Shown here piece after piece: positions 594 through 31,956 of a stretch of 33,113 nucleotides of DNA (position 1 is its first letter; each line of letters opens with the position of its first letter). A program made the translations under genes and the position numbers. Location of the stretch: the IMG/VR virus record IMGVR_UViG_3300020595_000110, positions 1 to 33,113 of that record; one strand, given 5' to 3'. The notes below the pieces were generated by a model, which saw nothing but the letters and a program-made list of their open reading frames with translations, did no database searches and was not told the origin of the DNA. This DNA comes from a virus.

Positions 594-602
594 ATATGTA
601 TA
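594..602 (+). promoter_or_regulatory. Late-promoter-like motif ATATGTATA (scaffold-capsid unit)
   Basis: ATATGTATA followed by TTTGAAAAC. The overlapping TATATTTG also fits the Bacteroidetes -10 consensus TAnnTTTG. It lies 126 nt before the scaffold ATG, the longest leader in the window. Confidence 0.6.
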
Positions 603-727
603 TTTGAAAACATACGCGCTTCCTAATAAGCCGTCCCTGATTATTTATAACCCTATTAAGGTTCCTAATAACCTTATTTCCCGTACAATTAATTAACGAG
701 ACTCGAAAGAGAAAAAACCAAAATAAA
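603..727 (+). promoter_or_regulatory. Structured leader of the scaffold-capsid unit
   Basis: This non-coding leader holds a perfect 7-bp hairpin at 657-676 (TAAGGTT, six-base loop, AACCTTA). It also has two copies of TTCCTAATAA at 620-629 and 662-671, the second overlapping the hairpin loop. TATTTATA at 642-649 is a partial second promoter-like match. No ORF is present. Any regulatory role is inference. Confidence 0.4.
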
Positions 728-1996
728 ATGGCAAAAAACATTTTAAAAGAGGCAATCGCTGACGCTAAGGCAGTTCGTGAAGTTGCTCTTGCAAATGCAA
801 AGGCCGCATTAGAAGAAGCTTTTACACCACGACTTCAATCTATGTTATCAGCTAAATTATCTGAAGAATTAAATGAAGAAGAAGATTTAGATGAAACTTA
901 CATGGAAGATGAAAAAGAAGACGTAAAAGAAATGTATGATGAAGACGAAAAAATGGACGAAACATACATGGAAGATGAAAAAGAAGATTTAGATGAGGAA
1001 ATTGATTTGGAAGAAATTCTTAATGAATTAGAATTAGAAGAAAGTGATGACCTAGAAGAAACGGTCGACGAAGCTAAAAAAGATGACGACGAGAAAATGG
1101 AAGAAGCTAAAAAAGACGACGATAAAGACGACGTTAAAGAAGCTAAAGACAAAGAAGACGACATGAATGAAGCTAAAGACGACAAAGAAGATTTAGATGA
1201 ACAAAAACCAATCTACAAAGCAGAATACGCTAATGATGTTACTTATAAAGCGGATCATGTAAATGAAGATAAGGAATTTGATTTAGATACTCTTCTTGAG
1301 GAAATTAACAATTTAGACGAAGAAAAAGAAGACGACGTTAACGAGCAAACAGATTCAGAAATGGATGACATGTATGCAGGTTCTGCACTTCACAAAAGAA
1401 AAGAAGAAGGCCAAACTAACGAAGTTGTTGGTGTAGCTGCAGGTATTGCAGGTTTAATTGCAGCAGCAGGTGGTTTAAGTGCTTTAGAAATGGCGGCTGA
1501 TGATCCAGAATGGAGAGCTAAGTATCCAAAAGTGGCTAGAGCTTTAGAAAAAATGCAAGACATTGGTAAAGCAGCAGCTGATACCAAAAGAATGGAAGAA
1601 GCATCTAAAGACAAAGAACTTGATGAAACTAAAGCAGCTCTTGAAGCAGTCACTACTGAACTTAACGAAGTTAATTTGTTAAACTCTAAATTATTGTATG
1701 TTAACAGAATTTTTAAAGCAAACAATTTAAATGAAGGACAAAAACTACGTGTAGTTGAAACTTTAGATAATGCGTCAAATGTTAAAGAAGCTAAGTTAAT
1801 TTACGAAACAATCAAGGACACGTTTACTGTTGCTAAATCAACAAAAACAACTCCTAAAAGATCAATCAAAGAAGGATTAGGAATGGCTTCTAAAGCTGCA
1901 GGAACATCTACAGCTCCAAAGAAACCAGTTCTTAACGAATCAAATGATATGGTGACTAGAATGCAAAAACTAGCAAACATTAAAATTAATCAATAA
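728..1996 (+). CDS. Prohead core scaffold protein, T4 gp22-like
   Basis: A 422-residue, very acidic, largely helical protein encoded directly upstream of the major capsid gene, where gene 22 lies in T4. Residues 1-50 form an Ala/Lys/Glu helix (KEAIADAKAVREVALANAK). Residues 50-215 are a low-complexity Asp/Glu/Lys region with duplicated DETYMEDEKED blocks and several EEAKKDDD blocks. A short Ala/Gly hydrophobic helix follows at about 233-257, then a coiled-coil-like region at about 290-366 (TTELNEVNLLNSKLLYVNRI). The C-terminus ends RMQKLANIKINQ. gp22-type scaffolds form the core inside the prohead and are degraded by the gp21 protease; that gene is not in the window. The ATG follows AAAATAAA with no Shine-Dalgarno. 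The capsid gene starts 23 nt downstream, so the two are probably co-transcribed. The assignment rests on position, composition and the C-terminal region. Confidence 0.8.
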   Translation: MAKNILKEAIADAKAVREVALANAKAALEEAFTPRLQSMLSAKLSEELNEEEDLDETYMEDEKEDVKEMYDEDEKMDETYMEDEKEDLDEEIDLEEILNELELEESDDLEETVDEAKKDDDEKMEEAKKDDDKDDVKEAKDKEDDMNEAKDDKEDLDEQKPIYKAEYANDVTYKADHVNEDKEFDLDTLLEEINNLDEEKEDDVNEQTDSEMDDMYAGSALHKRKEEGQTNEVVGVAAGIAGLIAAAGGLSALEMAADDPEWRAKYPKVARALEKMQDIGKAAADTKRMEEASKDKELDETKAALEAVTTELNEVNLLNSKLLYVNRIFKANNLNEGQKLRVVETLDNASNVKEAKLIYETIKDTFTVAKSTKTTPKRSIKEGLGMASKAAGTSTAPKKPVLNESNDMVTRMQKLANIKINQ

Positions 1997-2019
1997 CTAA
2001 ATAAAAAAATTTACAAAAA

Positions 2020-3735
2020 ATGGACAATGTAAACAATTTATTAGAAGGTGCAAGCCCTTACCAAGTTCTACAGGAGCAAGCTGGAAAATTAGCTAGCAAA
2101 TGGGATAAATCAGGACTTTTGGAAGGAATTACATCTTCTACAGAAAAGAACAACATGTCAATGTTGTTAGAAAATCAAGCTAAACAGCTTGTAAATGAAT
2201 CAAATACAGTAACATCAGCAGGTTCTGGAGTTTCTATCACTAATGGTGGTAATTCAGAAGCTTGGGCGGGTGTTGCTCTTCCTTTAGTACGAAGAGTATT
2301 TGGAGAAATCGTAGCAAAAGACCTAGTGTCAGTTCAACCAATGAACTTACCAGCAGGTTTAATTTTCTACCTTGACTTCCAATATGGAACAGGTACTGCT
2401 AACAAAACAGTAGGAGAATCACTTTATGGTGCATCTTCAGATCTTAAAAGAACATCAGAATCGTTCGATACAGGTCTTTATGGTGCAGGTGAGTTTGGTT
2501 ACTCAACAACTTCTGCTTCAATCGCAGTTACTTTAGACCAAACAGGACACACTTCACAATCACTACAAGCAGGTGGTGGTGGATTATTAGGAATTTTAGC
2601 TGGTGATACTGAATTCTCAGCATCTTTTGCTGGTGGATTTGATGGCGCTGACGCATTTGGAGATACAGATGCAATTAGAATTGTAAATGTTTTACAAGCT
2701 TCAGCATCTAATTTTGATGCAGATGCAATTAGAGCATTTGCTTTTGATGGGGCAGTAAAAACATTCCCACAATACACAAGATTACATACATCAGGATCAG
2801 GTGAAAAAGTAATTCAATTAGTAATTTCAGGTGCTGCAACTACTGCTCCTGGAAATTTAATTTACTTAACAACTCCTGATAACTTAAATGATAGAGGTGA
2901 TTTTGAAGACACAATGCCAGAAGCAGGAGCAGGTACAGTATCTGCTTTATCTATTCCTGAAATCAATGTTCAGTTAAGATCTGAAACAGTTGCTGCTAAA
3001 ACACGTAAATTGAAAGCACAATGGACTCCTGAGTTCGCTCAAGACTTGAATGCTTATCATTCAATTGACGCTGAAGCAGAATTAACTTCAATCTTAAGTG
3101 AGTATATTTCAATGGAAATTGATTTAGAAATCTTAGATATGTTAATCAGAAATGCTGATACTGTTGAAGGTTGGAGTGCTAAAGTTGCTCAAGATGTATC
3201 TGTAAATTCAAACCACACAGTAGGTGGTACTGCAGGTGTTACTTATACATCAAACCAAAATAATTTAGGTGTATATTACACTAAAATGTCTTGGTTCCAA
3301 ACTTTAGGTGTTAAATTACAAAAAGTTAGTAACTTAATTCACCAGAAAACTCTTCGTGGTGGTGCTAACTGGATGGTAGTTTCTCCAAAAGTTTCTACAA
3401 TTTTAGAAGCAATCCCAGGATTTGCAGCTGACTCATCAGGAGACAGTGACAAATACAATATGGGTGTTCAAAAGATTGGTGCAATAAATAACAGATATAC
3501 AGTTTATAAAAACCCTTACATGGTTGAAAATACAATCTTAATGGGTTATAAAGGATCTCAATTCCTTGAAACTGGTGCTGTTTTTGCTCCGTACATTCCT
3601 TTAATCATGACACCTCTAGTGTATGATCCTACTTCATTCACACCAAGAAAAGGTATCATGACTAGATATGCTAAGAAAATGGTTCGTCCAGATTTCTATG
3701 GTAAAGTAATGATTCACGACTTAAACGAGCTGTAA
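2020..3735 (+). CDS. 23: Major capsid protein, T4 gp23-like
   Basis: A 571-residue shell protein of the gp23 family (T4: 521). Family landmarks are SVQPMNLPAGLIF at about 104-116 (T4 GVQPMNSPTGQVF) and, from about residue 320, AAKTRKLKAQWTPEFAQDL then DAEAELTSILSEYISMEI, which aligns closely with the equivalent T4 gp23 segment. The C-terminal half holds GVQKIGAINNRYTVYKNPY and GYKGSQFLETGAVFAPYIP. The N-terminal ~60 residues are Gln/Glu/Leu-rich and are probably the propeptide removed by the prohead protease. MLLE at about 48-51 is a possible L-x-E cleavage site. The extra length lies mostly between residues 120 and 315, a Ser/Gly/Ala-rich insertion. The leader is only 23 nt with no promoter motif, so it depends on the scaffold promoter. 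A strong terminator follows. Confidence 0.95.
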   Translation: MDNVNNLLEGASPYQVLQEQAGKLASKWDKSGLLEGITSSTEKNNMSMLLENQAKQLVNESNTVTSAGSGVSITNGGNSEAWAGVALPLVRRVFGEIVAKDLVSVQPMNLPAGLIFYLDFQYGTGTANKTVGESLYGASSDLKRTSESFDTGLYGAGEFGYSTTSASIAVTLDQTGHTSQSLQAGGGGLLGILAGDTEFSASFAGGFDGADAFGDTDAIRIVNVLQASASNFDADAIRAFAFDGAVKTFPQYTRLHTSGSGEKVIQLVISGAATTAPGNLIYLTTPDNLNDRGDFEDTMPEAGAGTVSALSIPEINVQLRSETVAAKTRKLKAQWTPEFAQDLNAYHSIDAEAELTSILSEYISMEIDLEILDMLIRNADTVEGWSAKVAQDVSVNSNHTVGGTAGVTYTSNQNNLGVYYTKMSWFQTLGVKLQKVSNLIHQKTLRGGANWMVVSPKVSTILEAIPGFAADSSGDSDKYNMGVQKIGAINNRYTVYKNPYMVENTILMGYKGSQFLETGAVFAPYIPLIMTPLVYDPTSFTPRKGIMTRYAKKMVRPDFYGKVMIHDLNEL

Positions 3736-3761
3736 GCAGTTAGTTTAATATATTTTGAAAG

Positions 3762-3788
3762 AGAGCCGCATTAGCGGCTCTTTTTTTT
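3762..3788 (+). terminator. Rho-independent terminator after the capsid gene
   Basis: GAGCCGC-ATTA-GCGGCTC stem-loop (3763-3780) followed by T8. The T-tract runs straight into ATATGTATA. It is nearly the same cassette as the one at 4750-4785. Confidence 0.92.
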
Positions 3789-3797
3789 ATATGTATA
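3789..3797 (+). promoter_or_regulatory. Late-promoter-like motif ATATGTATA
   Basis: The nonamer directly abuts the terminator T-tract and lies 114 nt before the ATG of the 272-residue protein. The following TGTGTAAACAATAATT resembles the bases after the motifs at 24853 and 28483. Confidence 0.6.
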
Positions 3798-4729: not shown

Positions 4730-4749
4730 GCCTTATTTAAACTTTAAAG

Positions 4750-4776
4750 AGGACCGCATTAGCGGTCCTTTTTTTT
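4750..4776 (+). terminator. Rho-independent terminator
   Basis: GGACCGC-ATTA-GCGGTCC stem-loop (4751-4768) with T8. It has the same ATTA loop and layout as the terminator at 3762, with compensatory changes in the stem. Confidence 0.92.
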
Positions 4777-4785
4777 ATATGTATA
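4777..4785 (+). promoter_or_regulatory. Late-promoter-like motif ATATGTATA (phoH)
   Basis: It follows the terminator T-tract directly and lies only 15 nt before the preferred phoH ATG at 4800, so the mRNA leader must be very short. Confidence 0.6.
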
Positions 4786-5480: not shown

Positions 5481-5489
5481 ATATTTATA
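5481..5489 (+). promoter_or_regulatory. Late-promoter-like motif ATATTTATA (neck operon)
   Basis: TTTTTCATATTTATAATAGAAC, 25 nt before the neck-protein ATG at 5515. The next such motif is at 15460, so this one may serve the whole 5515-15436 unit. Confidence 0.55.
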
Positions 5490-5514: not shown

Positions 5515-6672
5515 ATGGCAAAAATACCTATATGGCCGGGCTCATCATCATTTGCAACAGTATCTAATCCGACACCTTTTGCATTATATGATTCAGACAC
5601 TGAATTTATTACGGATGCTGATAATATTTCAAATTGGTGTGCTAAACGTTTAGGATACCCTCTTGTAGATATTGAACTACAAGATGTAAATTTTTATACT
5701 TGTTTTGAAGAAGCTATAAATGAGTATGGAGCTCAATTATACAATTTTCAAATAATAAATAATTTTCATACATTAGAAGGAACAACAACAGGATCTAATT
5801 TTAATAACCAATTAATTTCTCCTAATTTAGGGGGTACAGTTAATATATCGGACCAATATGGTAATGAAACTTATGGTGGTGGAGGAGATTATAAAAAAGA
5901 ATCAGGTTCTTTATTAGTAAAAAAAGGAATCCAACAATATGATTTATTATCAGCTGTTAGTTCTTCTTTAAGTGGTTCAGAAGCAGTTTATATTAAAAAA
6001 ATAATGCATTATCAACCAGCAGCTATAAATAGATATTTCGACCCATATGCAGGTACAGGTACAGGTATTCAATCCCTAATGCAAACTTTTGGATTTGGTA
6101 ATTATTCACCAGGTGTAAACTTTATGTTAATGCCTATGTTTTTTGATGCTTTAAAAATTCAAGCAATTGAATTAAATGATGCTATTAGAAAATCAGCATA
6201 TCATTTTGAAATAAGCAACAATAGGTATTTAAAATTATTTCCTATCCCTACAAGTGATTATACTTTATGGTATGAATACCAATTAAAATCTGTAGCTAAT
6301 GCTCCAGTAAAAAATGATGCAACAAATTTAATAACGGATATATCAAATGTACCTTATACTAATCCTACTTATGCTTTTATAAATGAGCCTGGTAAACAAT
6401 GGATTAGAAGATATTGTTTAGCATTAGCTAAAGAAATGTTAGGTAGTATAAGAGGTAAATATCAAGCTTTACCAATACCAGGAGATACTACTACTTTAGA
6501 TTATGCTAGGTTATTAAGTGAAGCAATAACTGAAAAAACAGCATTAATAACAGAACTAAAAGAATTATTAGAATCTACAACTAGATTAAAACAATTAGAA
6601 AGACAAAATCAAGAAGCACAACAAACACAAGAAACTTTTTATAAAGTACCATACCCAATTTATATAGGTTAA
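5515..6672 (+). CDS. Putative neck / head-completion protein (gp13-like position)
   Basis: A 385-residue protein opening the neck/tail-completion block. The N-terminal part includes NWCAKRLGYPLVDIELQDVNFYTCFEEAINEYGAQL, which has the layout of phage head-tail connector adaptors: a helical domain with LGxPxVDIEL and a later A/E-rich helix. A Gly-rich loop follows (GNETYGGGGDYKKES), then a strand-rich middle (YLKLFPIPTSDYTLWYEYQL), and a C-terminal helix rich in Gln, Leu and Glu. It precedes the gp14-like and gp15-like genes, which is the place of gene 13 in T4; I make the gp13 link mainly on order and not on recognised sequence identity. The TAATG overlap with the next gene suggests translational coupling. 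Confidence 0.65.
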   Translation: MAKIPIWPGSSSFATVSNPTPFALYDSDTEFITDADNISNWCAKRLGYPLVDIELQDVNFYTCFEEAINEYGAQLYNFQIINNFHTLEGTTTGSNFNNQLISPNLGGTVNISDQYGNETYGGGGDYKKESGSLLVKKGIQQYDLLSAVSSSLSGSEAVYIKKIMHYQPAAINRYFDPYAGTGTGIQSLMQTFGFGNYSPGVNFMLMPMFFDALKIQAIELNDAIRKSAYHFEISNNRYLKLFPIPTSDYTLWYEYQLKSVANAPVKNDATNLITDISNVPYTNPTYAFINEPGKQWIRRYCLALAKEMLGSIRGKYQALPIPGDTTTLDYARLLSEAITEKTALITELKELLESTTRLKQLERQNQEAQQTQETFYKVPYPIYIG

Positions 6673-7013
6673 TGATAAAATTAAAAAACATATTAAACGA
6701 ACTATTAAATACTTACATAGTACAAGCTTACATGCTAACAGACACTGAATATAATATTACAGATATATTAGATCAAATTAGAGCAATAAGAAAAGTAACT
6801 ATTGTAAGAAATATAACTCCTCCTGAATATGTTCAAAAACAAAATTTTGAATATACTTTAGTTACAATTAAATTTATATCAAGAGGAAATCCTAAAGAAG
6901 ATTTAAAAAAACTAAAAAAAGATATTTTAACATCTAATAGAAGTATAAATGATTTAAGAGTACCAGGTGTAAAATCTTTTAAAATTAAACCAGAAACCTT
7001 AAAAAGAATATAA
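6672..7013 (+). CDS. Small conserved-looking protein between neck genes
   Basis: A 113-residue Lys/Ile-rich protein. Its start overlaps the previous stop (TAATG) and its stop overlaps the next start in the same way. Residues 30-110 read as a compact alpha/beta domain: helix (TDILDQIRAIR), strand (KVTIVRNI), strand (FEYTLVTIKFISRG), helix (PKEDLKKLKKDILTS) and strand (GVKSFKIKP). This order is suggestive of a ferredoxin-like fold (inference). No T4 equivalent recognised between genes 13 and 14. The tight coupling suggests a structural or assembly role at the neck. Confidence 0.7.
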   Translation: MIKLKNILNELLNTYIVQAYMLTDTEYNITDILDQIRAIRKVTIVRNITPPEYVQKQNFEYTLVTIKFISRGNPKEDLKKLKKDILTSNRSINDLRVPGVKSFKIKPETLKRI

Positions 7014-7558
7014 TGGCTTTATTTGGAGGATCACGAGATATATCACTTTTTAACACAGTAAGTAAAGAACTTATTAATGATATTATTCAATCAGAAGTTG
7101 GATATTACAAATTTGCTCTTGAAAAAACTACATCTAATGTTTATGGTGAATCCCAGGGCAAAGTATACTATGAACCCGTAAGAATAGCGTGTTTAATGCA
7201 GAGAGAAGACCAAACATGGTCGTCTGATGACTTTGGATCTGACCTTAATCAAACACTTAATTTTAGGTTTTTAAAAGAAGAATTAAAAGATATAAATTTA
7301 GTACCAGAAGTGGGAGATATATTACTTTTTAGGAATAATTTTTATGAAGTTGATAGTAAAATCGAAAATCAATTAATACTAAGTAAAGATCCAGACTATG
7401 CTATTTCAACAGGAACAACTGATTTTGGTAATAGTCATTCAATTATATTAAATACTCATATTTCAGGAATAGAAAGATTAAATTTAATACCTTTAAGAGG
7501 TGGAAAATATCCATCTACAACTAAAATAACTGATGGAATAGCTAATTTACTTGGATAA
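7013..7558 (+). CDS. 14: Neck protein, T4 gp14-like
   Basis: A 181-residue protein (T4 gp14: 256). The clearest family segment is PEVGDILLFRNNFYEVDSKI, about residues 103-122, followed by LSKDPDYAIS. It matches in layout the T4 gp14 stretch EGDLIYFPMDNSLFEI and what follows. Upstream is the VYYEPVRIACLMQRED segment, comparable to the ECYYVPRE region of T4. gp13 and gp14 form the neck that closes the filled head and receives the tail. It is shorter than T4 gp14, mainly through loss of the C-terminal acidic region. Four-base overlaps (TAATG) occur at both ends. Confidence 0.75.
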   Translation: MALFGGSRDISLFNTVSKELINDIIQSEVGYYKFALEKTTSNVYGESQGKVYYEPVRIACLMQREDQTWSSDDFGSDLNQTLNFRFLKEELKDINLVPEVGDILLFRNNFYEVDSKIENQLILSKDPDYAISTGTTDFGNSHSIILNTHISGIERLNLIPLRGGKYPSTTKITDGIANLLG

Positions 7559-8604
7559 TGACAGATTTTAAAAGACCTATACCTAATAGACAAAATGAAC
7601 TGTTAAGAAAAAACTTATCAGCTCCTCAGTATGATCAAGAATCATTATCTGAAAAATCAGAAAAAGGTTCTAGTTTAGCTAGAGAATCTTCTACATTAGA
7701 AATAAATGAATTTCCTATTAAAGGATTAGTTGAAGATAGAAAAACCCCAAGACTATTAAAAGATAAAGTAAATAGATCTAATGTTACTCGTAGAGATGAT
7801 GATACAACAAAAGATGTAAATATAGGTTTACAAGATCATGATGAGGCTATAGCATATTATTTTGATAAAGTTATTCAACCTTCTATTATAAAAAATGGGC
7901 AAAGAGTAGAAGTACCTTTAGTTTATGGATCTCCTGAAAGATGGAAATCAGTTCAACGAGATGGATATTATAGAGATAAAGAGGGAAAAATTCAAACCCC
8001 TCTTATTATGTTTAAGAGAGACAGTGTTGAAAAAAGAAGGGATTTAGGTAATAAAATGGATGCTAATAATCCCCAACTACAATATACTTTTCAAAAAAAA
8101 TATACAAAAAGAAATCAATATGATAATTTTTCAGTATTACAAGGTAGAACACCACAAAGAGAATTACATGCTGTAGTAGTACCTGATTATGTAACTTTAA
8201 ATTATAGTTTTACTATATGGACTTCATTTGTAGCAGATATGAATAAAATGGTTGAAGCTATAAACTATTCATCAGATTCATATTGGGGTGATTTTGAAAG
8301 ATTTAAATTTAATGCAAGAATTGATACTTTTAGTAATAGAGTAGAATTATCACAAGGAAATAATAGGGTAGTAAAAACAGATTTTGGGTTAAAATTGCAA
8401 GGATATATAATCCCAGAAGCCATGAATGCTTTTATAAACAAACACCCAACAAAACAATTTTCAAAATCTATTCTTACTAATATCACAGAAGTAATAGCCG
8501 AAGATCTAATAGAACACGATAGAGCAAGACAACCAATAAATAAAGTAGGAGATAGTGGAAGTGGTATTGGTTATGATAAAATAGGACACCAACAAATAGG
8601 ATAA
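7558..8604 (+). CDS. 15: Tail completion / sheath stabiliser protein, T4 gp15-like
   Basis: A 348-residue protein (T4 gp15: 272). The core resembles gp15: VEVPLVYGSPERWKSVQRDG (T4 VPITYASKEHF), then TPLIMFKRDS, a strand/helix region YVTLNYSFTIWTSFVADMN with MVEAINYSSDSYWG (T4 MIYELSIFTRYEDDMFQIVE), and GLKLQGYIIPE near residue 282 (T4 FEVNGWMYPP). About 95 charged, probably disordered residues are added at the N-terminus, and the C-terminus is a basic/polar tail. gp15 caps the tail tube and sheath and contacts the neck. Its start overlaps the gp14-like stop (TAATG). A fibre gene begins 4 nt downstream. Confidence 0.78.
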   Translation: MTDFKRPIPNRQNELLRKNLSAPQYDQESLSEKSEKGSSLARESSTLEINEFPIKGLVEDRKTPRLLKDKVNRSNVTRRDDDTTKDVNIGLQDHDEAIAYYFDKVIQPSIIKNGQRVEVPLVYGSPERWKSVQRDGYYRDKEGKIQTPLIMFKRDSVEKRRDLGNKMDANNPQLQYTFQKKYTKRNQYDNFSVLQGRTPQRELHAVVVPDYVTLNYSFTIWTSFVADMNKMVEAINYSSDSYWGDFERFKFNARIDTFSNRVELSQGNNRVVKTDFGLKLQGYIIPEAMNAFINKHPTKQFSKSILTNITEVIAEDLIEHDRARQPINKVGDSGSGIGYDKIGHQQIG

Positions 8605-8608
8605 TAAA

Positions 8609-9241
8609 ATGGCAAAACAAACAAGAACAACATTAAAAGGATACTTTGAAACAGGAGATATACCTACAGGGGGAAATTATGTTGATTTAATAGACAGTCC
8701 CTTAATGTTAAATACTGAAAATACAGGAAGTGCAAATATTTTAGGCACCATAACAGCTTCAGGAGATATTAGTTCAAGTGGAGACATAATAGGAGTTACT
8801 GGTTCGTTTGATTATGTAAAAACAGATAAATTACAAGTAGGAGCAGCAGGTGGTACAGATATATTAAGTATAGATGGTGGTGATTTACAATTAGAAAATG
8901 GTAAACAAATAACATTCTCAGATATAGGTGATGGAAATACTGGTAGAGTAAGAATAGTTGGTAATGAAGATAGTGATACTATCCAGATGTTTGTTGATAA
9001 TAATAATTCCCATACATTAAGATTAGATACGACAGGTGTTAGTATAGGAACATCCACACCAGCAGAAAAACTAACAGTAGAAGGCAATATAAGTGCAAGT
9101 GGTTTTATAAGTGCTTTTGGAAGCTCTTCATTTGTAGGATTACCAACCACAGAACCTTCAACAACAGGAACTTTATGGTTATCAGGTAGTGGTGGGGGAT
9201 CAGCTTCAGGATCAAAATATTTAATGGTATTTACAGGATAA
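8609..9241 (+). CDS. Short tail-fibre-like protein (KGYFETGD class)
   Basis: A 210-residue fibre-like protein. The N-terminal KGYFETGD-x-PT...DLIDS (about 9-29) is shared with the gene at 13313 and is probably an attachment domain. TASGDISSSGDIIGVTGSF repeats follow, then a strand-rich domain around DTIQMFVDNNNSHTLRLDTTGVSIG and a second GNISASGFIS repeat. The C-terminus is GTLWLSGSGGGSASGSKYLMVFTG, a short Gly/Ser tip. The ISASG repeat type is typical of trimeric fibre shafts in uncultured marine phages (family knowledge). It is the first member of the long fibre array and is probably co-transcribed with the neck genes. Confidence 0.75.
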   Translation: MAKQTRTTLKGYFETGDIPTGGNYVDLIDSPLMLNTENTGSANILGTITASGDISSSGDIIGVTGSFDYVKTDKLQVGAAGGTDILSIDGGDLQLENGKQITFSDIGDGNTGRVRIVGNEDSDTIQMFVDNNNSHTLRLDTTGVSIGTSTPAEKLTVEGNISASGFISAFGSSSFVGLPTTEPSTTGTLWLSGSGGGSASGSKYLMVFTG

Positions 9242-9252
9242 TTCGATAAAAA

Positions 9253-10734: not shown

Positions 10735-10750
10735 CATAAGACAATAAAAA

Positions 10751-13297: not shown

Positions 13298-13312
13298 TAA
13301 ATAAATAAAAAA

Positions 13313-21976: not shown

Positions 21977-21985
21977 ATATTTATA
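21977..21985 (+). promoter_or_regulatory. Late-promoter-like motif ATATTTATA
   Basis: TTTTTTTATATATTTATAATAAA, 66 nt before the ATG at 22052. The T-run ahead of it has no clear stem. Confidence 0.53.
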
Positions 21986-23172: not shown

Positions 23173-23175
23173 GTT

Positions 23176-24849: not shown

Positions 24850-24883
24850 CATATATGTATATCTGAACAATAATTAAAAAATA
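24850..24883 (+). repeat. 34-nt duplicated promoter/leader, copy 1
   Basis: Identical over 34 nt to 28480-28513. It includes CATATATGTATATCTGAAC and the following AATAATTAAAAAATA. Confidence 0.9.
24853..24861 (+). promoter_or_regulatory. Late-promoter-like motif ATATGTATA
   Basis: It lies inside the duplicated leader, 27 nt before the ATG at 24889. Confidence 0.6.
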
Positions 24884-24888: not shown

Positions 24889-25185
24889 ATGGCAGTTAAA
24901 AAACCAACAGAATCTACTACATCTTCAAAATCATTAGAATCTAAAAAAATTGAAGAAAATGATCTAAATAATCTTAAACAGCTTCAAACAGAAACTGATA
25001 GATTAGTTTATAGTTTAGGTCAATTATATATTCAAAAAGAAAAATTATCTAACACTGAAAATGATCTTAAAAAGGCAATTCATCAAATTGAGCAAAAAGA
25101 AGAAGAATTAGGTAAGCAATTATCTAGTAAATATGGTGTGGGTACTGTTAATATAGAAGAAGGTACTTTCGTACCAAGGTCTTAA
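24889..25185 (+). CDS. Coiled-coil protein upstream of tail sheath
   Basis: A 98-residue protein with a Ser/Thr/Lys-rich N-terminus (1-22) and then a continuous coiled coil at about 23-78 (LKQLQTETDRLVYSLGQLYI, NDLKKAIHQIEQKEEELGKQ). It closes with KYGVGTVNIEEGTFVPRS. The same layout, a short coiled coil ending in KYGxG, recurs in small proteins of marine T4-like phages (recollection). It has its own promoter motif. Structural or assembly role unknown. Confidence 0.7.
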   Translation: MAVKKPTESTTSSKSLESKKIEENDLNNLKQLQTETDRLVYSLGQLYIQKEKLSNTENDLKKAIHQIEQKEEELGKQLSSKYGVGTVNIEEGTFVPRS

Positions 25186-25203: not shown

Positions 25204-25212
25204 ATATTTATA
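25204..25212 (+). promoter_or_regulatory. First ATATTTATA motif before tail sheath
   Basis: The nonamer lies 59 nt upstream of a second copy and overlaps the foot of the hairpin at 25209-25236. Confidence 0.4.
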
Positions 25213-25236: not shown

Positions 25237-25262
25237 TTAGGTTAGGTTTGTAGATTTTTTTC

Positions 25263-25271
25263 ATATTTATA
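25263..25271 (+). promoter_or_regulatory. Late-promoter-like motif ATATTTATA (tail sheath)
   Basis: TTTTTTTCATATTTATATATGTAAGC, 47 nt before the sheath ATG at 25319. Confidence 0.6.
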
Positions 25272-25318: not shown

Positions 25319-27892
25319 ATGGCAGAAAATATAATTTCACCGGGTGTATTTACAAGAGAAAACGACCTATCATTTTTACCACAAGGTATTGGACAAATTG
25401 GAGCAGCAATAATTGGACCTACAGAAAAAGGACCAGCTTTTGTCCCTACAGTAATCCGAAGAGGATTTAATGAGTATGAAGCTAGATTTGGTACTTATAG
25501 TAATGACACATATGTTCCATTAACAGTAAGAAATTACTTAAGAAATGCAGGAACTGTTACTATAGTAAGAGTACTAGGTGGTGGTGGATATACTATACAA
25601 GAAAAAGGCCTCCAAGCACTTGTTATAACAGGAAGTGGTGACTTTACAGGAAGTTCAGATTATGCAAATGTGGATGGAAAAGTATTAGCAGTACTTCATC
25701 CTTCTAAAAATGATGATGCTAAAGCAGACAAAAATACTTTTGATGTATCGGGATCAAGTATATTAGCATTTTCAGCATCTGATTCTAACCCAATTACAGC
25801 AATGGTGCCATTTAATACAAAAAGAGATGGTTTTGGAGACACATTTTGTTTAAAAATAGCGGGTGTTGGTTTCTCAGCAACAAAAGAAGTATCTGCTTCT
25901 TTAAATCCATCTTCACCTAATTATATTACAAAAGCTTTAGGAGCAGATGAAAACAATTCAAGATCAGGTTCAAATACTTATGCTGACACAGCTTACCCTT
26001 ACTTATATTTTAGAGAATATTCAACAGCTATAGACACTTTAACAACAGCATCAGCTACAGCAGCAGGATTATCTGCTTCAGTAAGTATAATACCACTACC
26101 AGAACATGTATTTACTGGAGGTACTAATAATAGTGGATTTACAGAAGGATATGATCATGCAGCTACACCAATGATTCAATCAGGATATAATGATGCTAGT
26201 GGTACTGTAACAGATTTATTTAGAGTACATAAAATTGCAGATGGTACACAAACAAACACAGATTGTAAAATTAGTATATTAAATCTTAAAGAACCTTCTG
26301 ATATAGATGGTGAAGAGCAATATAGTACATTTTCTTTACAAGTTAGAAAATTTACTGATAAAGATAAATCACCAGGAGTATTAGAACAATACGATGGTTT
26401 AAATTTAAATCCAGATAGCCCACAATATATTTCAAGAGTAATTGGGGATAGATATGCTGAATATAATACTGATTTACAAAAAGTAATTATATATGGTGAC
26501 TATCCTAACAAATCACAATATATTAGAATTGAAGTAATGTCAGATATAGATAATGGAGCTACTTCCCCTAAATTATCACCTAGAGGATTCGCAGCACCAT
26601 TAGATCCAATTGTATCTTCTAGTGCTGGTACTACAGTATCAATATTACCAGGATATGTTTCAAAATCAGAACAAACACTTAATAGTGTATATAGTAAAAA
26701 AGCATACTTAGGATTTGATTTTTCTAAATTAGATAATCATTTCTTCTGTAGACCAATCCCATCAACTACAATAGCAAATAACACAGGTAAATTTAATGTT
26801 GATGCTCATAATGGACATTCATCAGCAACATGGACAGGATCACTAAGTGCTTCAATAGATCAATCACAAGCATCAGGACCTAATGCTGATCAAGTTAAAT
26901 TTTCAGTACCATTCCAAGGTGGTTTTGATGGTATGGGACCTCATATTGTAAAAAGAACAGGAGAATTTATTACATCAACTAACTTACATGGATTAGATTT
27001 ATCTAGTTCAGGAGCTTCAGGTTCAGCAGCTTATCAAAAAGCACTTGATATATTAGAAAATCAAGATGAATATGATATTAATATGTTAGCAACTCCTGGA
27101 GTTATCCATAGATTACATTCTACAGTTACAGTAGCAGCTCAAACATTAGTAGAAGACAGAGCAGATTGTTTTTATGTAATGGATTTAACAACAAGAGATG
27201 ATAAACACACAGAAGCAGTAAGTCAAGCATCTGGAATAGATACTAATTATGCAGCTGCATATTACCCATGGGTTAAAGTATTAGATCCATCTAAAAATAA
27301 ACCAGTATTTGTACCACCTTCAGTAATTGTACCAGGAGCAATAGCTCAATCGGATAGAATTGCTGCTGAATGGTTCGCACCAGCAGGTTTAAATAGAGGA
27401 GTATTAGGAAATGTAATTGAAGCAAGAACAAGATTAAGTCAAGCTGAAAGAGATGTTTTATATGAAGGAAAAGTAAATCCAATAGCAACATTTCCAAGAA
27501 CAGGAGTTTGTATTTGGGGTCAGAAAACACTTCAAGCAAGACCAACAGCACTCGATAGAATTAACGTAAGAAGATTATTAATTGAAGTTAAGAAATTTAT
27601 TGCAAGTTCTTCAAGATACTTAGTATTTGAACAAAACACAGTACAAACAAGAAACAGATTCTTAAACATAGCAAATCCATATTTAGAGTCAATTCAACAA
27701 AGACAAGGATTATTTGCATTTAGAGTACAAATGGATGAAAGTAATAATACACCAGATGAAATAGATAGAAATAGATTGATTGGTGCTATTTATTTACAAC
27801 CAACTAGAACAGCTGAATTCATAATTTTAGACTTTAATATCTTACCAACAGGAGCTACATTTGATGGTGGAGGTGGTGGAGGAAGCTACTAA
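25319..27892 (+). CDS. 18: Tail sheath protein, T4 gp18-like
   Basis: An 857-residue contractile sheath subunit (T4 gp18: 659). The N-terminus is diagnostic: ISPGVFTRENDLSFLPQGIG, then AAIIGPTEKGPAFVPTVI and YVPLTVRNYLRNAGTVTIVRVLGGGGY. The conserved C-terminal sheath domain (about 690-845) has PAGLNRGVLGNVIEARTRLS, QAERDVLYEGKVNPIATFPR, GVCIWGQKTLQARPTALDRI and NVRRLLIEVKKFI, then RFLNIANPYLESIQQRQGLF and a Gly-rich end (GGGGGGSY). The ~200 extra residues lie in the middle (about 130-560), probably added surface domains. The leader has two promoter motifs and a hairpin, consistent with high expression. Confidence 0.96.
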   Translation: MAENIISPGVFTRENDLSFLPQGIGQIGAAIIGPTEKGPAFVPTVIRRGFNEYEARFGTYSNDTYVPLTVRNYLRNAGTVTIVRVLGGGGYTIQEKGLQALVITGSGDFTGSSDYANVDGKVLAVLHPSKNDDAKADKNTFDVSGSSILAFSASDSNPITAMVPFNTKRDGFGDTFCLKIAGVGFSATKEVSASLNPSSPNYITKALGADENNSRSGSNTYADTAYPYLYFREYSTAIDTLTTASATAAGLSASVSIIPLPEHVFTGGTNNSGFTEGYDHAATPMIQSGYNDASGTVTDLFRVHKIADGTQTNTDCKISILNLKEPSDIDGEEQYSTFSLQVRKFTDKDKSPGVLEQYDGLNLNPDSPQYISRVIGDRYAEYNTDLQKVIIYGDYPNKSQYIRIEVMSDIDNGATSPKLSPRGFAAPLDPIVSSSAGTTVSILPGYVSKSEQTLNSVYSKKAYLGFDFSKLDNHFFCRPIPSTTIANNTGKFNVDAHNGHSSATWTGSLSASIDQSQASGPNADQVKFSVPFQGGFDGMGPHIVKRTGEFITSTNLHGLDLSSSGASGSAAYQKALDILENQDEYDINMLATPGVIHRLHSTVTVAAQTLVEDRADCFYVMDLTTRDDKHTEAVSQASGIDTNYAAAYYPWVKVLDPSKNKPVFVPPSVIVPGAIAQSDRIAAEWFAPAGLNRGVLGNVIEARTRLSQAERDVLYEGKVNPIATFPRTGVCIWGQKTLQARPTALDRINVRRLLIEVKKFIASSSRYLVFEQNTVQTRNRFLNIANPYLESIQQRQGLFAFRVQMDESNNTPDEIDRNRLIGAIYLQPTRTAEFIILDFNILPTGATFDGGGGGGSY

Positions 27893-27908: not shown

Positions 27909-27917
27909 ATATTTATA
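27909..27917 (+). promoter_or_regulatory. Late-promoter-like motif ATATTTATA (tail tube)
   Basis: TATATTTATAACGGAATAAAA, 24 nt before the tube ATG. It allows separate tube transcription 17 nt after the sheath stop. Confidence 0.57.
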
Positions 27918-27941: not shown

Positions 27942-28427
27942 ATGGCAATATTAAATACAAACGAAATTATGTTCACAGCATTTGAACCTAAACTACAAAA
28001 TAGGTTTATAATGTATATTGATGGAATTCCAGCATTTTTAGTGAAAAAGATATCAAGACCAAATATTCAATTTGGAGAAGTAACTCTTGACCATATCAAC
28101 GTAAAAAGAAAGATTAAAGGAAAAGCAGATTGGCAAAATGTTACAGCTACTCTTTACGATCCAGTAACACCTTCAGGTGCACAAGCAGTAATGGAATGGG
28201 TTCGTTTATCACATGAGTCAGTTACAGGTAGAGATGGTTATTCTGATTTCTATAAAAAAGACATTAGATTTAACGCTTTAGGTCCTGTAGGAGATGTAGT
28301 TGAAGAATGGATCTTAAAAGGAGCTTATTGTTCACAAGCAAATTTTGGAGAAATGGATTGGGCTACAGACACACCAGTTGAAATTTCATTAACTATTAGA
28401 ATGGATTACGCCATCTTAAATTACTAA
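27942..28427 (+). CDS. 19: Tail tube protein, T4 gp19-like
   Basis: A 161-residue protein, nearly the same length as T4 gp19 (163). Landmarks are AFEPKLQNRFIMYIDGIPAF with LVKKISRPNIQFGEVTLDHI, a KRKIKGKADWQNVTATLYDP strand pair, GAQAVMEWVRLSHESVTGR, and VVEEWILKGAYCSQANFGEM with the closing VEISLTIRMDYAILNY. This is the tube subunit fold shared by gp19 and other phage tail tubes. It lies directly after the sheath gene, as in T4, and is closed by a terminator. Confidence 0.95.
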   Translation: MAILNTNEIMFTAFEPKLQNRFIMYIDGIPAFLVKKISRPNIQFGEVTLDHINVKRKIKGKADWQNVTATLYDPVTPSGAQAVMEWVRLSHESVTGRDGYSDFYKKDIRFNALGPVGDVVEEWILKGAYCSQANFGEMDWATDTPVEISLTIRMDYAILNY

Positions 28428-28445: not shown

Positions 28446-28477
28446 AAAAGCGCCTATTTTGGCGCTTTTCTTTTTTC
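28446..28477 (+). terminator. Rho-independent terminator after tail tube
   Basis: AAAAGCGCC-TATTTT-GGCGCTTTT, a 9-bp stem followed by CTTTTTT. Confidence 0.9.
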
Positions 28478-28479
28478 TA

Positions 28480-28513
28480 CATATATGTATATCTGAACAA
28501 TAATTAAAAAATA
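28480..28513 (+). repeat. 34-nt duplicated promoter/leader, copy 2
   Basis: Identical to 24850-24883. Confidence 0.9.
28483..28491 (+). promoter_or_regulatory. Late-promoter-like motif ATATGTATA
   Basis: It follows the tube terminator and lies 43 nt before the ATG at 28535. Confidence 0.6.
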
Positions 28514-28534: not shown

Positions 28535-29326
28535 ATGGAACAAAATTCAACAAACCCAACAAACACATCAATTCAGTTTCCCTCAGAAGAAGTTACATTA
28601 CCTTCAAAAGGTTTACTTTATTCAGAAGGATCCCCTCTAAAAAATGGGATTATAGAAATGAAGTATATGACAGCTAGAGAAGAAGATATCTTAACAAACC
28701 AAAATTTAATAAAAAATGGTACTGTTATAGATAAATTATTACAATCTCTTATAATAACTCCTATAGATTACAATGATTTACTAATAGGAGATAAAAATGC
28801 TATATTAATTGCTTCTAGAATATTAGGATATGGTCAAGAATATAGTTTTACATATACACACCCTAATTCTGGAGAAGAGGAACAAGTAACAGTTGATTTA
28901 ACTGAAGCTGAAGATATAATACTTGATGAATCTTTGATCATGAATAATAAAAATGAATTTTCATTTACTTTACCTACATCAAAAACAGAAGTTACATTTA
29001 AACTTTTAACTCATGGTGATGAAAGACAAATAGACCAAGAAATAAAGGGATTAAAAAAGATAAGTAAATTAAGTAGTTCAGAATTAACTACTAGAATGAA
29101 AAACATGATTTTATCTGTAGATGGTGTTTATGATAAAAAAACAGTTAGAGAATTTGTAGATGGTGCTTTTTTAGCTAGAGATGCAAGAGCTTTAAGAGAA
29201 TATGCAGGTTCTATTATGCCTGATATAGATATGACATTTGATTTAGAATTTAAAGATGGGGCGAGCGCGGAGGGCGTAACCATTCCCATTGCAACATCAT
29301 TTTTTTGGCCTGAGTCAGCAGTATAG
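28535..29326 (+). CDS. 26: gp26-like (T4_baseplate family) / putative tail assembly chaperone
   Basis: A 263-residue protein. The family block is at about residues 20-110: VTLPSKGLLYSEGSPLKNGI, EMKYMTAREEDILTNQNLIK, NGTVIDKLLQSLI and GDKNAILIASRILGYGQEY, followed by TYTHPNSGEEEQVTVDLTEA. This matches the T4_baseplate (gp26, baseplate hub) family as seen in marine myoviruses. It lies between tube and tape measure, where other tailed phages encode the G/GT tail assembly chaperones. The zero-frame ending is SFFWPESAV. A T7 run at 29300-29306 could shift ribosomes into the frame at 29280-29564, giving a product of about 340 residues. Bases 29258-29276 are unusually GC-rich. Start: ATG after AAAAAGTT. 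Confidence 0.8.
   Translation: MEQNSTNPTNTSIQFPSEEVTLPSKGLLYSEGSPLKNGIIEMKYMTAREEDILTNQNLIKNGTVIDKLLQSLIITPIDYNDLLIGDKNAILIASRILGYGQEYSFTYTHPNSGEEEQVTVDLTEAEDIILDESLIMNNKNEFSFTLPTSKTEVTFKLLTHGDERQIDQEIKGLKKISKLSSSELTTRMKNMILSVDGVYDKKTVREFVDGAFLARDARALREYAGSIMPDIDMTFDLEFKDGASAEGVTIPIATSFFWPESAV
29256..29306 (+). promoter_or_regulatory. Candidate recoding site (GC-rich patch plus T7 run)
   Basis: The slippery run is T7 at 29300-29306, read TCA TTT TTT TGG in the zero frame. Moving +1 or -2 keeps full Phe-tRNA pairing and enters the downstream frame at GGC (29307). A GC-rich patch containing GCGGAGGGCG lies about 25-30 nt upstream. GGAGGG could act as an internal Shine-Dalgarno-like stimulator, though the spacing is long for that. 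Confidence 0.5.
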
Positions 29327-29564
29327 AAAACAATTTTTTACTCAAATTCATGATTTAGTTTATCATGGTAATGGAGGATTTGTCCACTCAGAAGTTTATA
29401 ATATGCCTATTTGGTTAAGAAAATTTCATATTCAATCAATTAATGATTTTCAGAAAAAACAAGAGGAAGAACATAATAAAGCTAGAGGGGAATCAAATAT
29501 AGGAGATGACAATAAAATCTTTAGACCAGGAGTAAATCCAACTAATTATAATTTTAGTAAGTAA
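29280..29564 (+). CDS. Downstream frame reached by frameshift from the gp26-like gene
   Basis: This frame opens after a TAA at 29277-29279 and overlaps the end of the gp26-like gene by 47 nt. There is no ATG until about 29403, which is already inside conserved-looking sequence (MPIWLRKFHIQSI). The only early alternative start is a TTG at 29289. Protein from the T7 run: GLSQQYRKQFFTQIHDLVYH, GNGGFVHSEVYNMPIWLRKF, then a charged, probably disordered tail. The best explanation is a fusion with the upstream frame by +1 or -2 slippage on TTT-TTT-T, as in gpG/gpGT systems. It might correspond to T4 gp51, which neighbours gp26 on the T4 map, but I cannot confirm this. An extra T in the assembly would give the same appearance. 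Confidence 0.7.
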   Translation, partial: PFPLQHHFFGLSQQYRKQFFTQIHDLVYHGNGGFVHSEVYNMPIWLRKFHIQSINDFQKKQEEEHNKARGESNIGDDNKIFRPGVNPTNYNFSK

Positions 29565-29590
29565 AAAGTGCCATAGGCACTTTTTCTTTT
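29563..29590 (+). terminator. Rho-independent terminator
   Basis: AAAAAGTGCC-ATA-GGCACTTTTT, a 10-bp stem that overlaps the stop codon and is followed by CTTTT. Confidence 0.9.
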
Positions 29591-29591
29591 C

Positions 29592-29600
29592 ATATTTATA
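29592..29600 (+). promoter_or_regulatory. Late-promoter-like motif ATATTTATA (tape measure)
   Basis: TTTTCATATTTATACGTG, directly after the terminator tract and 18 nt before the ATG at 29619. Confidence 0.58.
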
Positions 29601-29618
29601 CGTGAATAATTTTACATT

Positions 29619-31948
29619 ATGGCAAACGAAAACGAAAAAGAAAGACTAACACTAGAACAGGAATTAATCCAAATGCTCAAAAACAGACAAGTAGAGCTAC
29701 ATGGTATAATCAACGTCATAATGATATTTCTATTAATATTCAAAATGAACTTAGAGATACTCAACTTACTGTTAAAGAAAAACAAAAAATACAAAGTATA
29801 ACTAATCATTTAGTTGCACAAAATAGCAAATTAAAATTATTTTCATCAGACCAATTAGGTACTAAAGTAAAAGAAAGACAAATATTAGAACAAATAAAAA
29901 GTACTGAAGGGGCCTTAGCAGGTATTCAAAGACAAAAACTTAAAGCAAATAAATTAGAAGGAGATGCTAAAAGGGCAGCATTAAAAGACATTGAAAAACA
30001 AGAAAATGCAGCAAAAGGAGTAATAAAAACTCTACATAGACAAAGAGATGCTGCTAAAGAAATAGCAGACAATAAAATAGCAGATAGTTTTGGTAATGTA
30101 GGAAAAACACTAGAAGGAATCCCAGGATTAAATATATTTAGTGATGCTTTTGCAGGAGCAGGAAAAGCAGCAACCTTAGCAAAACAACAAACAGTAAACT
30201 TTTCTAAAGGATTTGGGGATGCATCTCAATACACTAAAGCAAATTTAGCTAAATTAGGTAAAAATGCTGAAGTTGTAGGTAAATCTGGAAAAGCCTTATT
30301 TGGATCAGCAGCCAAAAAAGCATTAGAAGCAGGAACAGCACAAGTTAAAGGAGTAAATATGACTATGCTAACTGCTAAAGCAGGTATGAAATCTTTAGCA
30401 GTATCAGTAAAAGCTATATTTGGTCCCCTAGCATTGTTAATGGCTGCTATAAAAGCAGGATTTCAATTTGATGCTGAAGTAACTAAATTACAAAAAGGAT
30501 TAGGAGTATCTAGAGGAGAAGCCAAAGGTATTAGGGATAATATGTCAGGTTTATCTAGAGAAATGAAAAATAACGCAATTAATTCTGCGGATATGCTCAA
30601 ATCTTTTAATACTTTAAATGAACAATTTGGAACAGCTGCTACTACTATGAGAGATGACATAGTTGGAGAAACAGCCAAATTAATGAAATTGACAGGTATG
30701 TCTGCACAATCAGCAGGAAATTTTGCTAAATTTTCTAATATATCTGGTAAAAATATGAAAACTGTTACTACTGAAGCTAGAAGAGCTGTAGTAGCAGCCG
30801 AAGCTGAAGGAGGGGCTAGATTAAATATAAATAAAACATTAGATGAAGCAGGTAAAATAGGAGGTCAAGTATCAGCTCAATTAGCAGGAAATCCAGCCAA
30901 AATAGCTAAAGCAGTAGCACTAGCTAAACAATTTGGTATGGAGTTAGAAAAAGTAGCAGCAGCAGGAAATCAATTGTTAAACTTTCAAGACTCTATAGGT
31001 AAAGAATTAGAAGCAGAATTATTATTAGGAAAATCACTTAATTTAGAACAAGCAAGATTAGCTGCTTTAACAGGTGATTATGAAACTTTAATTAAAGAAA
31101 TTAATAGAGAAGTAGGATCATATGCTGATTTTACTAAAATGAATGTTTTACAACAAAAAGCACTAGCAGAATCTGTGGGTATGACAGTTGATCAATTATC
31201 AGATCAACTATTAGCTAAAGCTAATTTAAATGAATTAGCAGAAGAAGCAAGACTAATGGGGGATGAAGATTTAGCTAAACAATTAGAAGCAAGATCAGCA
31301 CAAGAAAAATTTAATGATACAGTAGCTCAATTAAAACAAATATTTGTAGATTTAGTAGGTGGACCATTTGGAGATGTTTTAAATGCTATAGGAACAGCAG
31401 TAAGTGGAATGTCAGTACTTTTAGGATACGCACAAGATTTTGGTGCTTTTGTTGGAGGATGGGCTTCAGGTTTAGGAGATTTTTTAGCTGGGTTAGGACC
31501 TATAGGAAAAGCATTAAAAGGTTTAGGTATGTTAGCAGTTGTATTTGGAGCCTATAAAGCATTTTCAGCTTTAGCCTCAATACCTGTTGTAGGACCTATT
31601 TTAGGAGCGGCAGCAGCAGCAGCAGTAATAGCAGCGGGTTCAGCAGCACTAAATGGTGCTGAAACTGCTGATGATGCTACTTTTGAAGGAGGAGGATATG
31701 GAAAAAGAACATTATTAGAAGAAGGAAGAATAACCAGATTTAATGATAATGATACTATTATAGCAGGAACAAGATTAGGTAGAGCAAATGACATGATTAG
31801 TGAAGGAGCAGCTACACCACCAAGAACAACTCCAGCACCACAACCTATAATAATAGATAACACAGTAGTACACGATTCATTCCAATCATCTAATTATTAT
31901 AATGGTCCTAGAAGTAGAGAAAAAGCAAACTCAGCTATATTTGACTAA
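29619..31948 (+). CDS. Tape measure protein, frame-interrupted near the N-terminus
   Basis: The ATG at 29619 starts MANENEKERLTLEQELIQML, but this frame soon turns non-coding in character and stops at 29801. The frame 29684-31948 is open for 754 codons yet has no ATG, GTG or TTG start until 30359. Joining them at the A5 run (29679-29683) gives LIQMLKK-QTSRATWYNQRH and a 776-residue protein. It has helical, Lys/Gln-rich N-terminal sequence (QLTVKEKQKIQSITNHLVAQ), hydrophobic segments near 264-278 (AIFGPLALLMAAIKA) and about 635-680 (VVGPILGAAAAAAVIAAG), and long helices such as LNEQFGTAATTMRDD. Position after tube and chaperone-like genes, length and composition fit a tape measure (functional equivalent of T4 gp29). 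The break is either one missing A or -1 recoding; the heptamer CAAAAAC is not a standard slippery site, so I favour an indel. Confidence 0.78.
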
Positions 31949-31956
31949 TATGTATA
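31948..31956 (+). promoter_or_regulatory. Late-promoter-like motif ATATGTATA
   Basis: It begins on the last base of the tape measure stop codon and lies 21 nt before the ATG at 31978. Confidence 0.55.

Follow-up and report, generated by a model that had tools for sequence, protein, structure and literature searches.

The window analyzed here is a stretch of viral DNA of 33,113 nucleotides (nt) that covers positions 1 to 33,113 of the IMG/VR record IMGVR_UViG_3300020595_000110, and the element under study is the nonamer ATAT(G/T)TATA, which recurs in its intergenic gaps. Among the genes of the window is a module for a T4-type head and tail (gp23-like capsid, PhoH-like protein, head-tail adaptor, tail sheath, tail tube, baseplate hub, and tape measure), and all of the retained genes point rightward. 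The original prediction, made from the sequence alone, had listed 15 copies of the nonamer and proposed it as a candidate late promoter of the single-element T4 kind. All 15 copies were recovered at those positions, on the + strand. They are listed below in their two forms, ATATGTATA and ATATTTATA, together with the terminator-like hairpins that precede six of them and the genes identified by profile.

549-576, + strand: terminator-like hairpin, precedes the motif at 594
594-602, + strand: candidate late promoter motif ATATGTATA, 17 nt past the hairpin and 125 nt upstream of gene 728-1996
2020-3735, + strand: T4 gp23-like major capsid protein (phrog_138, E 6.1e-73; 59.4% identity with the capsid of Immuto, 85% of the query aligned)
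3757-3786, + strand: terminator-like hairpin, precedes the motif at 3789
3789-3797, + strand: candidate late promoter motif ATATGTATA, 2 nt past the hairpin, downstream of the major capsid gene
4746-4773, + strand: terminator-like hairpin, precedes the motif at 4777
4777-4785, + strand: candidate late promoter motif ATATGTATA, past the hairpin, upstream of the PhoH-like gene (start taken at 4800)
5481-5489, + strand: candidate late promoter motif ATATTTATA, upstream of 5515-6672 (head-tail adaptor-like)
15460-15468, + strand: candidate late promoter motif ATATTTATA, upstream of 15519-18347
18375-18394, + strand: terminator-like hairpin, precedes the motif at 18399
18399-18407, + strand: candidate late promoter motif ATATGTATA, past the hairpin, upstream of 18447-19484
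19493-19501, + strand: candidate late promoter motif ATATGTATA, upstream of 19526-21553
21977-21985, + strand: candidate late promoter motif ATATTTATA, upstream of 22052-23050
24853-24861, + strand: candidate late promoter motif ATATGTATA, upstream of 24889-25185
25204-25212, + strand: candidate late promoter motif ATATTTATA, distal copy upstream of the tail sheath gene
25263-25271, + strand: candidate late promoter motif ATATTTATA, proximal copy, 47 nt upstream of the tail sheath gene
25319-27892, + strand: tail sheath (phrog_23, E 2.3e-75)
27909-27917, + strand: candidate late promoter motif ATATTTATA, upstream of the tail tube gene
27942-28427, + strand: tail tube (phrog_4542, E 2.2e-26)
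28446-28469, + strand: terminator-like hairpin, precedes the motif at 28483
28483-28491, + strand: candidate late promoter motif ATATGTATA, past the hairpin, upstream of the baseplate hub gene
28535-29326, + strand: baseplate hub (phrog_150, E 8.8e-15)
29563-29585, + strand: terminator-like hairpin, precedes the motif at 29592
29592-29600, + strand: candidate late promoter motif ATATTTATA, past the hairpin, upstream of the tape-measure gene (start 29619)
31948-31956, + strand: candidate late promoter motif ATATGTATA, sharing one base with the end of the preceding stop codon, upstream of 31978-32874

The search of the window with a hand-checked gene map, in which intergenic DNA totals 1,521 nt, revealed that 15/15 of the + strand copies were intergenic (counting the copy at the gap edge at 31948) and that + strand coding sequence held none. 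The minus strand had a single copy, at 13468-13476 inside a gene, and none in the gaps. Two choices in this map were made by hand: the start of the PhoH-like gene was set at 4800, and the tape-measure gene was kept as one interval, 29619-31948. A purely mechanical gene caller placed the PhoH-like start at 4779, within the motif, and left 14 clear intergenic copies, because this copy of the motif contains an ATG that is in the reading frame of the PhoH-like gene. Of the 18 gaps that measure at least 20 nt, 14 contained the motif (15 copies), and the packed run of genes at 6672-13313 had no + strand copy, as had been claimed. The eight-base core TATKTATA was less exclusive than the nonamer (16 copies in + strand gaps, 2 in + strand coding, and 3 in minus strand coding sequence).

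A word made of A and T, or nearly so, might turn up in AT-rich gaps as an artefact of base composition or of mirror repeats. However, 2,000 dinucleotide shuffles of the window gaps gave a mean of 0.38 + strand copies and a maximum of 3, against the 15 observed, and the other strand of the same gaps had none. The motif is also conserved over the dereplicated relatives described below, and we give this explanation practically no weight. E. coli-type TTGACA/TATAAT pairs were not in excess (87 found vs. 83.3 expected; 59 found vs. 76.1 expected). Among the larger gaps, the one at 23051-23175 (125 nt) has neither the motif nor a listed terminator-like hairpin; a further signal or a wrongly called gene end may lie there.

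By capsid, the closest named phages were Flavobacterium phage Immuto, Microcystis phage Mel-JY01, an uncultured 484 kb phage and, after these, Rhodothermus phage RM378. A capsid relative at 52% sits in a Flavobacteriales metagenome bin. Because of these nearest relatives and this bin, a Bacteroidota host is likely for the phage of the window. Mel-JY01, named as a Microcystis phage, groups with Flavobacterium phage Immuto by capsid, sheath, and sigma, so that a wrong host label or a host jump may be involved.

The 80 capsid-bearing contigs that we took as relatives contained 271 forward and 25 reverse copies of ATAT(G/T)TATA. Removal of 18 loci as redundant and of one as a near copy of the window left 61 loci (769,856 nt; a simple gene caller assigned 43,977 nt to gaps), which had 193 copies in sense gaps, 29 in sense coding, 19 in antisense coding, and 3 in antisense intergenic sequence. 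Redundancy was cut by shared 21-mers and the remaining loci are still akin, so these counts are not independent events. In both the window and the relatives, then, the motif was not as frequent in genes or in antisense as in the sense gaps.

The same was seen in orthologous gaps. Within 150 nt after the capsid stop codon (56 loci), the motif was exact in 29 loci and had one mismatch in 25. For the tail sheath, 80 loci were collected; without 4 that were partial, 76 were left, of which 30 were dropped as redundant or too near to the window. Within 110 nt upstream of the sheath gene (45 dereplicated loci) the motif was exact in 42 and had one mismatch in 3; in the 90 nt from the sheath stop codon, before the tail tube gene (46 dereplicated loci), the figures were 44 and 2. 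No exact copy occurred on the other strand in any of the three gaps. At the sheath gene the distance from motif to start codon was nearly constant among the relatives (40-51 nt). A further word, GGTTT (window 25245-25249), precedes the proximal sheath motif by 14-18 nt and is conserved in 43 relatives, with 93-100% at each position; it is not a general feature of the late promoters.

Three larger contigs that also carry the sigma family discussed below had the motif 33 (G017), 22 (G019), and 11 (G010) times in + strand gaps and 9, 4, and 3 times in + strand coding sequence, with 2, 0, and 1 copies in minus strand gaps and 3, 1, and 4 in minus strand coding sequence. The structural stretch of Mel-JY01 (50 kb) had 6 copies in forward gaps, 1 in forward coding, and 4 in reverse coding sequence, and the whole record had 21 forward and 14 reverse.

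The distances from motif to start codon bear on whether the word acts in DNA or in RNA. They spanned 14-125 nt in the window, close to the 15-126 nt of the original prediction, and had a median of 21 nt in the 61 relatives (quartiles 15 and 26; n = 188). These often short distances, with the near-constant one at the sheath gene, are what an mRNA element such as a processing site, a leader, or a translation signal could also give. Such an element is hard to reconcile with distances as long as 125 nt, with the lack of the motif at genes of the packed run, and with the start-proximal AATAAAA, which is a separate word. Moreover, 6 of the 15 window motifs lie within 18 nt downstream of a terminator-like hairpin, right where new transcription would have to begin. 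We consider an mRNA element quite improbable and hold, with high confidence, that ATAT(G/T)TATA is a promoter.

The late promoter of phage T4 is TATAAATA, read with gp55, gp45, and gp33. As a yardstick, a 45 kb structural region of T4 was treated as the window was. TATAAATA occurred there in 8 forward gaps, 6 forward coding positions, 2 reverse gaps, and 1 reverse coding position, and 7 of the 8 forward gap copies lay 14-28 nt before a start codon, the other at 73. Since these counts and spacings are comparable with those of the window, the promoter architecture is alike in the two. On the + strand of the window, TATAAATA itself was found in no gap and in three coding positions, and the sense word here is TATKTATA.

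The core of the T form, TATTTATA, is exactly the reverse complement of the T4 consensus TATAAATA (consensus from PMC1524935), and for this reason the orientation of the motif matters: the copies might be T4-type promoters that fire leftward, antisense to the genes. However, all mapped genes of the window run rightward, T4 carries its own word in the sense direction, and the G form is asymmetric and has no such reverse-complement identity. The flanks of the motif are unequal as well. In both forms alike, the motif is followed by three free bases and then by a purine, which was present in 96% of 206 sites (47% with G), and after that mostly by A, while the mirrored position on the left is a pyrimidine in 62%. 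This purine and the start-codon spacing stay on the right side even where the left side has no T run: the fourth base was a purine in 95% of the 97 sites without TTTT in the 15 nt upstream. The near-invariant purine indicates a rightward direction and a candidate start site, so that transcription probably starts at or just past the fourth base after the motif. Leftward firing is accordingly very improbable. The tail T-N-TG-N-AA, which had been noticed after the G form, is better described as three free bases, a purine, and mostly A, after either form.

No conserved -35 word was visible in the position table of 191 relative sites, which bears out what had been noticed in the window. TTG had no preferred spacing upstream of the late sites (at most 16/206 at any single distance), and TTGACA occurred once. 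This is relevant to the other origin that had been suggested for the motif, namely that it is a late promoter recognized by the primary sigma of the host at the Bacteroidota -7 box TAnnTTTG, the -33 box being replaced by a phage activator or modification. The flavobacterial primary-sigma box TAnnTTTG is placed at -12 to -5 (PMC9723704), and the first copy in the window does overlap such a box (TATATTTG, at 599). This was, however, the sole copy of the 15 to do so; as a + strand intergenic word, TAnnTTTG occurred twice in the window, at 599 and 25243, and not at all in the 115-160 kb stretch of Immuto, and the G form of the motif breaks the TTTG box.

The complete genome of Immuto (17 forward and 2 reverse copies of the exact nonamer) allowed the two kinds of promoter to be compared. 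Its regions were bordered by hand from the annotation, with early-type denoting the region of small genes, and the gene list excluded tRNAs, minus-strand open reading frames (ORFs), and the 30-codon gp068. TATKTATA was present in 17/30 structural gaps, 2/32 early-type gaps, and 3/33 other gaps (Fisher p = 5e-7, structural vs. the rest); for the exact nonamer the counts were 10, 0, and 2. A different, two-element pattern, TTG-N24-TTTAGG, was found in 14/32 early-type, 2/32 other, and 0/30 structural gaps, a count that was made with a second gene list having one other gap fewer and that is descriptive only, because the pattern was chosen after the sites were inspected. The spacing between TTG and TTTAGG was 24 nt in 17/17 gap occurrences genome-wide; a first pattern, with a spacing of 18-23 nt, had given no matches. 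Many of the early-type promoters at 60.9-76.3 kb of Immuto (L091:10958-26250) are then followed by a shared leader, ATCAATAATTAAAA. In the gaps of G017, G019, and G010 the early-type class showed no excess (TTTAGG in + strand gaps 1, 3, and 0 times), and it was absent from the 33-kb window. From its gene content, the early-type region would be expressed early in time.

The late word and the early-type word of Immuto share ATATTTA, which might speak for a common reader. Nevertheless, the existence of a distinct two-element class in the early-type region, together with the lack of a fixed TTG at late sites and the rarity of TAnnTTTG, disfavours the host-promoter alternative, and we regard it as unlikely. 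The early-type promoters of Immuto are like the Bacteroidota sigma-A promoter (TTG / TAnnTTTG) in having two elements. The late motif differs from it: TTG has no fixed place, and the TTTG box is almost never present.

The reader proposed for a single-element late promoter is a gp55-like sigma, and the original prediction had suggested looking for such a gene elsewhere in the genome. The 33-kb window fragment has none, and a good candidate was found in the relatives. With the gp55 profile phrog_234, Immuto gave one weak match, the 'hypothetical protein' gp118, at 78174-78872 of NC_055915 (E 0.008 per genome, 0.5 per library). Four large relatives had weak matches to Sigma70_r2 (E 5e-4 to 5e-3; T4 gp55 itself scores 0.0045), and these four proteins and gp118 form one family (phmmer 1.2e-43 to 7.9e-59, Immuto vs. 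the four). A scan of viral contigs returned at least 599 relatives of the family from 600 candidates.

A profile of 41 members located the family in 8 of 20 records: Immuto, Mel-JY01, LR756508, RM378 (p020, E 9e-10), and four contigs of 64-90 kb. It was missing from 12 records, namely T4 and 11 fragments, none longer than 54 kb, so that every relative of at least 64 kb examined (8; T4 aside) encodes a member. Sigma70_r2 was matched in 28/41 members at E<=1 (best 0.0022), the sigma profile phrog_1740 in 26/41 (best 0.0011), phrog_30540, of unknown function, in 14/41 (best 0.0015), and phrog_234 in 2/41 (best 8.5e-4). Profile searches of PDB sequences with the family gave one unrelated weak match each. 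Searches by phmmer with T4 gp55, T4 gp45, and RM378 p144 against the ORFs of Immuto, the relatives, and RM378 gave nothing except the match of p144 to itself, and p144 was rejected as a shared protein, being a sigma of another family (phrog_1740).

An AlphaFold2 model of a gp118-family protein (predicted local distance difference test, pLDDT, 73.5; predicted template modeling score, pTM, 0.44) was compared with known structures. When the 316 top chains from Foldseek were re-aligned with VIA, T4 gp55 (7d7c_F) came first (Z 9.2, root-mean-square deviation 3.4, 115 residues aligned), and among the matches listed (50 rows) all were named sigma factors or polymerase complexes containing one. Among viral models, the best match was unnamed (5.9e-5) and the next was a phage sigma-E factor (2.3e-3). 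With hhalign, the wider family alignment (A4) scored 26.9 against 15 gp55 sequences (E 0.0034, 84 columns), and none of 200 column-shuffled gp55 alignments reached this score (maximum 21.2). In T4, Tyr97 of gp55 stacks on the flipped A-12 (PMC7892883). The residue aligned with it in the family is a tyrosine, invariant in 41/41 rows of the narrower alignment (A2) and in 15/15 of A4.

Members of the family are 228-269 residues long (41 rows), compared with 185 in T4 gp55, and they have an extra C-terminal helical part. When its 106 residues were modeled alone, with good confidence (pLDDT 83.8), the best Foldseek match had an E of 0.33, and the best VIA Z was 5.8, in mixed rows that included an Arabidopsis protein, SRP (signal recognition particle), and one sigma70-complex row (Z 4.9). 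The N-terminal half of the family models as sigma region 2-like and close to T4 gp55. Profile matches, structure, alignment, and the conserved tyrosine are weak as single lines; combined, they make a divergent gp55-like sigma the likely identity of the family. In Immuto (L091:28884-28892) and in G010, a late motif stands within about 15 nt past the end of the sigma gene and heads the next gene set.

The search for a gp45-like sliding clamp revealed one in G016, G017, and G019 with phrog_223 and, with the G019 protein as query, also in Mel-JY01 and LR756508, which makes 5/11 relatives in all. The clamps of LR756508 and Mel-JY01 are divergent, 26% identical to that of G019, and were missed by the PHROG model (clamp loci L241, L345, and L346). 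None was found in Immuto, RM378, G018, G001, G003, and G005 by phrog_223, the G019 query, or a wider profile; these negatives are soft, because the G019 query and the wider profile also miss the clamp of T4 itself. Coupling of late transcription to the clamp is therefore possible in some relatives, and in others the clamp was undetected. No LDFLYE-like clamp-binding motif was seen by eye at the C-termini of A4, where no dedicated test was made.

Several observations weigh against a T4-style late promoter read by the gp118 family. The window, a 33-kb fragment, has no sigma gene of its own. The first member of the family had no sigma match at E<=1, and DUF2624 was matched in 17/41 members (best 0.0012) and SNaCT10 in one (6e-5), so that the sigma match is not the best by E-value everywhere, other families scoring as well or better in some members. 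Foldseek of the AlphaFold2 model against PDB gave no match at E<=0.001; T4 gp55 was tied within 1 Z with other sigmas, and a Z below 13 can be chance for helical proteins. The hhalign probability against gp55 was 9.4% with A4, and with A2 it was 0.4% (E 0.14). In Immuto, 13/30 structural gaps lacked TATKTATA and 5/65 other gaps had it; gp068 holds one motif, and counting it as a gene leaves 16 structural gaps with the motif. Even the wider profile brought out no gp45-like clamp in Immuto or RM378, whose genomes are complete, a negative that is soft as noted above.

Protein and motif also do not track each other everywhere. RM378 encodes the family and has a different upstream word, TTATTTAAA, as well as another sigma, p144. 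LR756508 encodes it too, and its structural stretch is without the motif (1 copy in + strand and 1 in minus strand intergenic sequence). Either the promoter word drifted with distance or another factor reads the word in these two phages. There are 23 copies of TTATTTAAA in RM378 (L094-L096), of which 20 have an ATG within 20 nt. Some of them are palindromic and lie between divergent genes, and they may serve both directions, with very short leaders.

On balance, the window, the 61 relatives, and the orthologous gaps support the single-element, T4-like late promoter that had been proposed, and we consider it probable that ATAT(G/T)TATA is such a promoter with an altered consensus and that it is read by the gp118 family. 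We do not put this higher because gp55 ties with other sigmas and other Pfam families score. In the mechanism we propose, the core TATKTATA would be a rightward -10-like element, and the phage would be a myovirus related to T4, with Bacteroidota as its probable hosts. The element would start most of the structural transcription units, several times directly behind a terminator-like hairpin, and a phage sigma of the Immuto gp118 family would direct the host RNA polymerase core to it. This sigma would combine a region 2-like N-terminal half, close to T4 gp55, with an additional helical domain at its C-terminus. For early genes, the comparison with Immuto points to the host primary sigma, which would act at a distinct promoter with two elements. 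The late timing of the motif-driven genes is suggested by their gene content, and the reading of the motif by a gp118-family protein, the host, and any coupling to the clamp are likewise what we infer from the comparisons above. It can further be imagined that the late sigma is a single polypeptide in which a gp55-like region 2 is combined with a C-terminal domain that binds DNA or polymerase and replaces gp33 or region 4, and that late transcription of the Immuto/RM378 type is clamp-free and uncoupled from gp45; we advance this as a tentative and rather doubtful idea, given the softness of the clamp negatives.

The proposed system is like that of T4 in its single -10-like element without a -35, in the position of this element before head and tail genes, in the distance to the start codon, and in having a gp55-like sigma candidate, here in relatives of the window phage. 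It is unlike T4 in the core TATKTATA, the T form of which is the reverse complement of the T4 word, so that by consensus it does not belong to the TATAAATA class; in the longer sigma candidate with its additional helical part; and in that the gp45-like clamp was not detected in Immuto and RM378. T4-type late transcription, in which a sigma that makes no -35 contact is coupled to the replication clamp, was worked out in T4; for T4 relatives of Vibrio, Aeromonas, and cyanobacteria it was inferred in silico (PMC2988020). Late promoters of T4 relatives are single-element with small changes; T at -13 is weak, and Aeromonas phage Aeh1 has CTAAATA (PMC1524935, PMC2988020). The window motif resembles Aeh1 as another departure of a T4 relative from TATAAATA, but Aeh1 keeps the AAATA half, whereas here the center changes to KT. 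RM378 is a distant relative by capsid and sheath that shares the sigma family (p020) and differs from the window in its upstream word and its second sigma, p144. PMC12619734 mentions a sigma orthogroup in another lineage. Among the titles and opening lines of abstracts listed by searches of open-licence papers, none reported a late promoter or a gp55-like sigma for this phage group.

These results suggest that late transcription of the T4 type, with an altered promoter word and a candidate sigma that has diverged, operates in a group that is frequent among public virus contigs.

The tape-measure gene (29619-31948) has a reading-frame break near its start. Two near copies of the window (L264, 99.9% identity, and L297, 95%) each show one gap relative to it in this stretch, and an error in the window sequence or assembly is therefore likely.

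Immuto has both promoter classes in one genome and a cultured host, Flavobacterium sp. LMO8, so the code between sigma and promoter and the need for a clamp would be directly testable there. For poorly annotated genomes of this group, the motif may serve as a practical rule for marking late genes.

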